From assembly GCA_903943975.1 (NCBI GenBank), contig CAJAQB010000019.1, forward strand, positions 186,001-250,000: DNA of 64,000 nucleotides. The letters run 5' to 3'. The notes under the pieces are model-generated. The model was not told the DNA's origin and made no database searches. It worked only from the letters and a program-made list of their open reading frames with translations. The position numbers were made by a program, and so were the translations under genes. Positions 39,288 through 56,956 of the stretch are shown piece after piece; position 1 is the first letter of the stretch; the number at the start of each line of letters is the position of its first letter. This DNA is from Synechococcus lacustris (GTDB taxonomy: Bacteria > Cyanobacteriota > Cyanobacteriia > PCC-6307 > Cyanobiaceae).

Positions 39288-40007
39288 TTGGGGCCACTGT
39301 GCCGTTTGATCAAATTGCTGCGTGGGCTGGATGGTTGTGCGGCGGGTTGGTTGCTGGTGTGGGCGGAGGTGGGGGCCAGCAGCGTTGGGGCAAGCCTGCT
39401 GGCCAGCACCGCTGATCTGTCGCTAGAGGATCCAGCCACCCTCACCGCCATCGACATCCCGATAGGCCTCCACCACAACGGCCCCCGCCCCTGTGACCAG
39501 CAGGCGCGGCAGCTGCTTGGACCCCGGCGCAGCAGTGTTTTTCCGGCCCCGGTGCGTTCGGTGCTGCAGGCCCGCAGCTACAGCGAAGCCTGTGAACTTT
39601 CCTTTGAGGCCCAGGGCCGCAAACTGAGCAAGCAGACCTACAACATCCTCGCCAAAGTGCGCGCGGTGGATGCCCTGCTGCAGGGGCAGGGGGCCCTCAG
39701 CCAACGGCTGGTGGAAGTGCATCCAGAGCTGAGTTTTCAGCAATGGAACAACGGCATCCCGATGGCCCAGGCCAAGAAAACGGCGGAGGGTCGCCAGCAG
39801 CGGCTGCACTTGATCGAGCCCCGCTTCCCCGGTGCCTTTGCTGAGATCCGAGGCCGCTACAAACGCCGCGAAATTGCCGACGACGACATCCTCGATGCCC
39901 TGGCCTGCCTTTGGTCAGCGGAACGCATCGCCAGCGGCAACCATCTGCACGTGGGCCAGCCGGGCCAGATCGATGCCTGTGGTTTACCGATGCAGATTCT
40001 TGCTTGA
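39288..40007 (+). CDS. DUF429 family predicted nuclease
   Basis: A 239-residue member of DUF429, predicted to have an RNase H-like fold. Key segments are LDGCAAGWLLVWAEV near the start (metal-binding Asp), LTAIDIPIGLHHNGPRPCDQQAR, FPAPVRSVLQARSYSEAC, KQTYNILAKVRAVDALL, LVEVHPELSFQQWNN and IADDDILDALACLWSAERI with the C-terminal acidic cluster. No biological substrate is known. The listed start at 39288 is a TTG; a nearby downstream start is possible. It is divergent from the methyltransferase gene, with 23 bases between. Confidence 0.82.
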   Translation: MGPLCRLIKLLRGLDGCAAGWLLVWAEVGASSVGASLLASTADLSLEDPATLTAIDIPIGLHHNGPRPCDQQARQLLGPRRSSVFPAPVRSVLQARSYSEACELSFEAQGRKLSKQTYNILAKVRAVDALLQGQGALSQRLVEVHPELSFQQWNNGIPMAQAKKTAEGRQQRLHLIEPRFPGAFAEIRGRYKRREIADDDILDALACLWSAERIASGNHLHVGQPGQIDACGLPMQILA

Positions 40008-40262: not shown

Positions 40263-40619
40263 TGTATCTGGCGCCCAGCGGTGCCAGCCATTTTTTTCAG
40301 CTATTTTGCGGCCAATCTCCCCCTTGACTAGCTAGGGCTTTGCCTTGATGGCGTTTTGGCTAGTCACGGCTTTAAGCAATCCATTTTGTGTGCGGTCTTG
40401 CTTGTTACCCAGTTAATTTTCAAGCCCAGGGCTCATCACTCAAAACTCCCCAGCCGGGACTCTAAGGAAAATGACCCTAGTCATCTGACCCTAGTCATTT
40501 TCCTTAGAGTCAGCTCAACAGTGTTTGCCCAGGCCAGCGGGCTAAATAAGTTGGCCATTACTCACGGCCCCATGGGCAATCCCCTGTTTGAATCAAGCCG
40601 GATCTAACAGCAAAACACC
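40263..40619. other. Spacer without gene, contains palindromic element
   Basis: This stretch before yccF has no gene I accept. It holds the dispersed palindromic element described separately at 40458-40511. An 83-residue frame through it (40356-40607) looks non-coding by composition, although part of it resembles a frame over the second copy near 56.9 kb. Confidence 0.5.
40458..40511. repeat. Palindromic dispersed element, copy 1
   Basis: A perfect 18-bp inverted repeat (GACTCTAAGGAAAATGAC at 40458-40475, complement at 40494-40511) flanks an 18-base loop. Within it the 13-mer TGACCCTAGTCAT occurs twice in direct orientation (40472-40484 and 40486-40498). The same core occurs inverted at 56903-56956, where the outer arms have diverged. 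Similarity extends a little outside the palindrome on both sides. Confidence 0.85.
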
Positions 40620-41033
40620 ATGCTGCGTTTTCTGCTCAACCTGCTCTGGTTCCTGCTGGGCGGCTTCGTAATGGGTCTGGGCTGGTGGCTGGCTGGCCTG
40701 ATCGCAGCGATCACGATCGTTGGTCTCCCTTGGGCCAGGTCTTGTTTCGTGATCGGTAATTTTTCCTTTTGGCCCTTTGGTAAAGAGGCCGTAAGCCGCA
40801 GGGAGCTAACCGGCAAGAATGATTTCGGCACTGGCCCCCTCGGCTTGATTGGCAATGTGATCTGGTTTCTCTTGGCCGGTTGGTGGTTGGCCATCGGCCA
40901 CCTGGCCTCTGCCCTTGCTTGCTTCGTTTCGATCATCGGCATCCCCTTTGGCATCCAGCACATCAAATTGGCCCTGATTGCCCTGGCCCCGATCGGCCTG
41001 CAGGTGGTGCCCAGCCACCAACGGCTGGCTTAA
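40620..41033 (+). CDS. YccF domain inner-membrane protein
   Basis: A 137-residue protein with the duplicated YccF pattern: LLNLLWFLLGGFVMGLGWWLAGLIAAITIVGLPWARSCFVIGNFSFWPFGKEAV in the first half and GLIGNVIWFLLAGWWLAIGHLASALACFVSIIGIPFGIQHIKLALIALAPIG in the second. Four membrane helices are expected. The repeated IGIP/VGLP-W motif is diagnostic. Function is unknown. The stop is immediately followed by the nuclease frame. Confidence 0.9.
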   Translation: MLRFLLNLLWFLLGGFVMGLGWWLAGLIAAITIVGLPWARSCFVIGNFSFWPFGKEAVSRRELTGKNDFGTGPLGLIGNVIWFLLAGWWLAIGHLASALACFVSIIGIPFGIQHIKLALIALAPIGLQVVPSHQRLA

Positions 41034-41621
41034 TTGATACCCATCGCCCTGCCCCCACCAGCACCCCTGCGGCTGGCGGCCATGGTGCTGTCGATTGCCG
41101 ATGGCGACACCGTCACCGTTAACGAGGCCGGGGCCCGCCTCAAGGTGCGGCTGGCCTGCATCGATGCCCCAGAGCTTTCCCAAACCCCCTACGGCCAGGC
41201 CTCCCGCCAGGCGCTGCAGGCTTTACTGCCGCTGGGCTCCCAGGTAACGCTGCGCATCAAGGCCACCGATCGCTACGGCCGCACCGTGGCTGAACTGCTA
41301 ACTGGAAAAAACAACAGGAATATCAGCAATAACAGTAATAACAGCAATATCAGCAACAACAGTAATAACAGTAATAACAGTAATCAAAACAACATTAATC
41401 AATACAACATCAACAAAAACAATATCAACCAACACAATATCAACCAACAAATGATTGCCAACGGCCAGGCATTTGTGTATTGGAATTTCATCAGCGCCTG
41501 TGATCGAGAGCGCTATGCAAGGCTGGAAACCCTGGCGCGTCTCAAGGGGCTTGGCGTGTGGGCCGTCCCTGGCGGTCTTGAGCGACCCTGGGAGCTACGC
41601 AGCCACAGCAGACAGCGCTAA
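41034..41621 (+). CDS. Staphylococcal nuclease-like protein with Asn-rich insertion
   Basis: The nuclease OB-fold is split. Residues 17-92 contain VLSIADGDTVTVNEAGARLKVRLACIDAPELSQTPYGQASRQAL and DRYGRTVAELL, with the expected catalytic Arg, Asp, Glu and Arg positions. Residues 140-195 contain the continuing MIANGQAFVYWNF and RLETLARLKGLGVWAVPGGLERPWELR. Between them residues 93-139 (41310-41450) are a low-complexity insert of mostly Asn with Ser, Ile and Gln, encoded by AT-rich near-tandem DNA. The insert falls in the loop before the helix that completes the fold. No signal peptide is seen. The start may be TTG 41034 or ATG 41082. Confidence 0.8.
   Translation: MIPIALPPPAPLRLAAMVLSIADGDTVTVNEAGARLKVRLACIDAPELSQTPYGQASRQALQALLPLGSQVTLRIKATDRYGRTVAELLTGKNNRNISNNSNNSNISNNSNNSNNSNQNNINQYNINKNNINQHNINQQMIANGQAFVYWNFISACDRERYARLETLARLKGLGVWAVPGGLERPWELRSHSRQR
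41310..41450 (+). repeat. AT-rich repeat encoding Asn-rich insert
   Basis: About 140 bases of short imperfect repeats (units such as AATAACAGT and AACAATATC) encode Asn, Ser, Ile and Gln in frame within the nuclease. Composition differs sharply from the GC-rich gene around it. All length changes preserve the frame, as expected for slippage within a translated repeat. Confidence 0.8.
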
Positions 41622-56902: not shown

Positions 56903-56956
56903 GACTCTAATGAAAATGACTAGGGTCAGATGACTAGGGTCAAATTCAAGAGAGTC
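56903..56956. repeat. Palindromic dispersed element, copy 2
   Basis: This is the complement of the element at 40458-40511: the 13-mer ATGACTAGGGTCA occurs twice (56916-56928, 56930-56942). The outer arms are imperfect here (GACTCTAATGAAAATGAC against GTCAAATTCAAGAGAGTC), so this copy has decayed more than the first. Confidence 0.8.

Follow-up and report, generated by a model that had tools for sequence, protein, structure and literature searches.

The palindrome at positions 40458 to 40511 (plus strand) of a 64,000-nucleotide stretch of Synechococcus lacustris DNA (the window) belongs to a genuine dispersed repeat family that is specific to this lineage and has a core identifiable as an operator. 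In the reading that we favor, to which we assign a probability of about 0.6, it is a small dispersed palindrome of about 54 bp, present in about 26 copies, with the tandem operator of a chromosomal operon for a Phd/YefM-like antitoxin and a PIN toxin as its core and with orphan copies that titrate the antitoxin-toxin complex. For most small dispersed palindromes of bacteria, no molecular partner is known. In this case, comparative evidence links the core to one particular DNA-binding protein, namely a Phd-like antitoxin, and a single protein and a single DNA fragment would therefore suffice to test the binder and the role of the repeat.

Repeat unit and its copies in the window

The unit of about 54 bp consists of arms GACTCTCTTGAAW…TTTTCAAGAGAGTC enclosing two 13-mers, TGACCCTRGTCAT, placed 14 bp apart. 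According to column statistics for an alignment of 23 copies, the consensus runs from arm CTCTCTTGAATA through site TGACCCTAGTCAT, a single variable base, and site TGACCCTRGTCAT to arm TTTCAWKAGAGT, and weak similarity among copies extends about 20 bp rightward of the unit. Each 12-bp TGACCNTRGTCA is a near-palindrome in itself.

Copy 1, of 54 bp (GACTCTAAGGAAAATGACCCTAGTCATCTGACCCTAGTCATTTTCCTTAGAGTC), lies between a DUF429 gene (39306 to 40007, plus strand) and yccF (40620 to 41033, plus strand). The perfect 18-bp inverted repeat around a doubled 13-mer described there by an earlier, sequence-only reading of the window was confirmed. On the plus strand, the left arm GACTCTAAGGAAAA (40458 to 40471) is followed by two operator-like 13-mers, both TGACCCTAGTCAT, at 40472 to 40484 and 40486 to 40498, which have a 14-bp period and both match the toxin-antitoxin (TA) operator matrix introduced below, and by the right arm TTTCCTTAGAGTC (40499 to 40511), the complement of the left arm. 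Copy 2, on the minus strand at 56903 to 56956, is indeed the second copy with damaged arms that had been recognized, as it is identical to copy 1 at 48 of 54 positions, with the mismatches in the arms; its operator-like 13-mers, again TGACCCTAGTCAT, lie at 56930 to 56942 (site 1) and 56916 to 56928 (site 2), both on the minus strand. The exact 13-mer occurs four times in the window, always within these two copies, and at up to two mismatches there are six matches versus 0.79 expected, a number reached by no shuffle. Some similarity does continue beyond the 54-bp palindrome, as had been proposed, but it is weak (25/49 and 26/49 identical). Separately, a nuclease-like reading frame, judged as such from its sequence, occupies window positions 41034 to 41621 and carries a long asparagine- and serine-rich insert, NNISNNSNNSNN.

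The left arm reads CTCTCTTGAA in most copies, and in three, copy 1 among them, it is altered to match an altered right arm. Within-copy arm complementarity exceeded that of shuffled pairings (22 of 5,000 shuffles). Strong hairpins are predicted on both strands (RNA folding energies of -26 to -42 kcal/mol, with z of -4 to -9).

Copy number and genomic placement

The genome (2.47 Mb in 23 contigs, 95% complete, encoding PsaA and PsaB) contains 31 occurrences of the exact 13-mer and 27 of the doublet at up to three mismatches, and a BLAST search with the copy 1 locus returned the same places, arms included. The family thus comprises about 26 loci in this one genome, a count in which an array of six 14-mers on contig C21 is taken as one and contig-end copies are included. 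The sequence-only reading had seen a two-copy element, which is correct for the window but not for the genome, and had held that two copies alone, with none in relatives, would favor chance or local duplication; with about 26 intergenic copies in both orientations and amplification in this genome only, its suggestion that the element is mobile and dispersed is supported.

Based on codon-based gene calls, all copies are intergenic and occur in both orientations, the only overlaps being with a small number of weak and doubtful reading frames; the coding share of the sequence examined is 86%. About 8 copies lie in convergent gaps, 9 in tandem gaps, and 2 in divergent gaps, near the background of 26/50/24% by gap length. 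The neighboring genes are varied housekeeping genes, including ruvC, gyrA, radA-like, aspS-like, dps-like ferritin, pdxH-like, and murF-like genes and others, among which neither a shared function nor a promoter-side bias was found. These observations bear on the possibility that the antitoxin controls about 20 neighboring genes through the orphan copies, for which the match of the core to a TA operator and the precedent of MqsA, which also binds to operator-like sequences at other places (PMC4803016), could be cited. Because the neighbors have no common function or promoter-side bias, such a dedicated regulon is less likely; most copies lie off promoter sides, no pathway is common to the neighbors, and the sites are kept in no congener, and we consider this reading very unlikely.

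The hairpins could alternatively serve transcript stability or termination in 3' regions, with the operator match being incidental. The strong folds on both strands and some excess of convergent gaps (8/19 versus 26% of gap length) are consistent with such an RNA-level element. However, an Rfam search returned no known RNA family, the core conserves sequence rather than pairing, right-arm changes often break pairing, and the tight match to a TA operator would have to be a coincidence, all of which leave this explanation extremely improbable.

Two side observations concern placement. Copies at five loci (L061, L069, L073, L074, and L080) are close to genes of DNA repair or replication (ruvC, radA-like, gyrA, an exonuclease/phosphatase-family gene, and a UvrD/RecD-like helicase gene), mostly on the 3' side of the gene, a grouping made post hoc. 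Further, copies are contained in tandem units of about 108 to 164 bp at L079 (C21, about 146 to 252) and L062 (end of C2, 9860 to 10001), and one tandem copy has an expanded core with six 14-mers (TGACCCTAGTCAT C TGACCCTGGTCAT T TGAACCTTGTCAT ...). Both C2 and C21 terminate in tandem repeats and may be joined there.

Distribution in other genomes

Of 299 other genomes in the taxonomic family, a set that includes three congeners, 295 lack the doublet at up to three mismatches. A set of 399 other genomes from this taxonomic family, likewise including the three congeners, revealed no amplified family. A search for the generic doublet TGACN4GTCN3TGACN4GTCA at up to one mismatch, with palindromic matches listed on both strands, gave 26 sites here versus 0 to 2 in each of 399 others, where the matches were at chance level and mostly unlike the element. 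In congener G080, the region at yccF is too diverged to reveal an empty site.

Elsewhere in the GTDB species collection, the exact doublet occurs in two other contig stretches only, L059:5447-5473 and L060:2843-2869, which belong to two gammaproteobacterial metagenome-assembled genomes. No antitoxin homologue was found near either doublet, which counts against the operator reading. The L060 doublet seems to be placed directly after the stop of a short reading frame. A phage or plasmid origin was considered and rejected, as the exact doublet is absent from viral contigs and the element from plasmids and phages.

Core as a putative toxin-antitoxin operator

In 299 genomes of the taxonomic family, four weak matches to the core were found before any TA system was suspected, and all four lie directly at one TA family, immediately upstream of the antitoxin gene (one of the TAs is degraded). 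With the antitoxin homologue of the own genome as the query, homologues were found in 22 of 300 family genomes. We built an operator matrix from 22 orphan cores, leaving out the own TA-linked copy, and counted a score above 0 within 200 bp upstream of an antitoxin gene as a match. Matches were obtained for 15/15 close antitoxin homologues (the own one plus 14 from other genomes, representing six genera), for 0/20 distant PF02604 (Phd-type) antitoxins, and for 1/351 control slices (Fisher p of about 2e-24, with loci partly related by descent).

The protein family assignments agree with a Phd-like antitoxin paired with a PIN toxin. PF02604 was detected in 14/14 antitoxin homologues, some below the curated cut-off, and the own antitoxin scored 22.2 bits versus a cut-off of 29.8 and was below the NCBIfam cut-off too. 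Its AlphaFold model has a mean pLDDT of 78, and its closest solved structures, with sub-threshold E-values, include the N-terminal domains of VapB46, RelB, and Phd. The own toxin is a VapC-like PIN protein (PF01850, E of 1e-9), and a toxin gene was observed behind several of the antitoxin homologues.

The DNA itself shows the copies with their palindromic arms and intergenic location, as well as the core match upstream of the antitoxin in six genera; as a point against the operator reading, no such arms were seen at the operators of the relatives. These comparisons argue strongly that the core is a putative operator of this Phd/YefM-like antitoxin family. Because the matrix matches upstream of antitoxin homologues, the repeats can be regarded as operator-bearing palindromes, with about 25 of them being candidate orphan operators. 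This identity of the core is beyond what the sequence-only reading had expected.

Toxin-antitoxin operon of the own genome and the ndk locus in relatives

A single such operon is present in the own genome (C13, L071), and a family copy with arms lies at or shortly before possible GTG starts of the antitoxin frame. This copy is at -170 from the conserved antitoxin domain versus -45 to -104 in relatives, and TAACCC replaces TGACCC in both of its sites. It is the apparent operator of the own operon, a role that we only infer from its sequence in view of its farther position and the changed sites. At L071:5050-5090 (minus-strand reading), a GGATGGAT tetranucleotide run separates this element from a tRNA-like sequence.

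In many relatives (L083, L084, L085, L101, L103, L108, and L109), the Phd/PIN operon is located next to ndk in divergent orientation, and the ndk side is the apparent integration spot of this TA in relatives. The own ndk locus (L135) has neither the TA nor the doublet. Descent of the repeat from the TA leader that a congener carries next to ndk was also considered and set aside; strong local similarity was seen for one copy only, and homology of the consensus and flanks was not convincing.

Mobility and spread

Short, multicopy, palindromic, and extragenic, the element belongs to the descriptive class of REP/SDR-like dispersed palindromes. With arm GACTCTCTTGAAT as bait (up to one mismatch), 18 matches were found in the genome, every one abutting a core and all at places already known. 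Thus, the arms are never found without the core, and no copies with a lost or decayed core were detected by arm baiting of the genome. The suggestion that the two window copies are ends of a mobile element was not supported, as no longer master element uses these ends, and the genome-wide arm search revealed no autonomous element with the same terminal inverted repeats, as would be expected for a MITE. A longer master copy with a transposase, for which a search had been recommended, was not found in the genome, nor was any transposase partner or larger transposon. Target-site duplications, also proposed as a check, did not stand out (longest flanking repeats of 2.87 versus 3.00 in shuffled flanks). 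Mobilization by a RAYT was rejected; the only Y1-type transposase (Y1_Tnp) gene is frame-broken, and neither copies nor inverted repeats occur at the gene.

The further suggestion of relics of one small gene fails because the reading frame is not maintained. In 13 of 23 copies the open stretch seen contains no start codon, minor alleles are spread over all three codon positions (36/26/32), and the hallmarks of a small gene (conserved start, frame, and synonymous bias) were not found. The peptide shared by the two window copies is real but is accounted for by the repeat itself, as the missing start codons and the spread over codon positions indicate.

An ordinary REP/SDR/MITE-like palindrome that happens to hold a TA operator sequence could also have spread through its hairpins, by replication slippage, single-strand transposition, or a lost transposase, with no functional tie to the antitoxin today. 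The strong hairpins, the three copies with compensated arms, the random-like intergenic placement, the broken Y1-type transposase, and the 14-mer array, expanded locally in tandem where C21 begins, fit such a history. However, within the same copies the operator positions are far less variable than the arms (minor alleles at 7/460 operator-consensus positions versus 61/552 arm positions), although core conservation may come partly from recent spread and from core-based searching. In addition, arm bait uncovered no decayed cores, and the own TA still has a copy. On balance, we regard this alternative as unlikely, but it deserves serious consideration. As for the route of copying, we can only speculate that the hairpin arms point to a single-strand or replication-linked process.

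Proposed mechanism

In type II TA systems, the antitoxin uses its N-terminus to bind short palindromes upstream of its own operon; dimers on neighboring sites are bridged by the toxin, which results in conditional cooperativity. By analogy, we hypothesize that each 12-bp palindrome TGACCNTRGTCA would bind one antitoxin dimer and that the 14-bp spacing would let the toxin bridge two dimers, as at the YefM and Phd operators. One copy would still be the operator of the sole such operon in the genome, and the other approximately 25 would be orphan operators that, together with the hairpin arms, spread as a non-autonomous repeat for which no transposase is recognizable. Should this antitoxin-toxin complex also bind the orphan copies, as their sequence suggests, the likely consequence would be titration of the repressor away from the operon without regulation of the neighboring genes, and TA expression would then follow the complex pool.

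The copies are most likely non-autonomous small dispersed palindromes that are predicted to be able to bind and titrate the antitoxin-toxin repressor. If occupied, the orphan copies would be natural decoys for a TA repressor, a layer of TA control that we did not find in the open-access papers searched. More tentatively, and with the odds somewhat against it, a chromosomal TA operator may have turned into a selfish, hairpin-borne repeat, such that the approximately 25 orphans would bind the antitoxin-toxin complex throughout the genome, set the free-complex dose, and couple the TA module to the scattered operators. A TA operator amplified in this way was not described in a limited search of the open-access literature.

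Comparison with known systems

As a dispersed element, the repeat resembles REP/REPIN sequences and the small dispersed repeats (SDR) of cyanobacteria (PMC3116915) in being short, intergenic, palindromic, genome-specific, and multicopy, with no gene of its own. It lacks the tested hallmarks of MITEs and of RAYT-mobilized REPs, and it differs from REP/REPIN in that no intact RAYT lies beside any copy and no GTAG/CGTC tag was seen at the ends. Unlike both REP/REPIN and SDR, its core is a putative protein operator.

As a site, comparative evidence points to a Phd/YefM-type operator. The toxin partner in VapBC systems is a PIN protein, as is the toxin predicted here, and the own antitoxin resembles that of Mycobacterium tuberculosis VapB46-VapC46, with 6jqy being its nearest solved structure by sequence and fold, both as sub-threshold matches. 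Like the operators of Escherichia coli yefM-yoeB and P1 phd-doc, the core has two short palindromes little over one helical turn apart, located upstream of an antitoxin-first operon whose antitoxin has a Phd-like fold; the two YefM palindromes, L and S, are 12 bp apart center to center (PMC4803016) versus 14 bp here. Unlike those systems, the motif is TGACCNTRGTCA rather than TGTACA, the toxin is a PIN protein, and the site is amplified about 26-fold within a palindromic repeat. The pneumococcal BOX element, a dispersed intergenic repeat, touches the promoter of yefM-yoeB, a TA of the Phd/YefM type (PMC4803016); whereas BOX adjoins the operator, here the putative operator is itself the core of the repeat.
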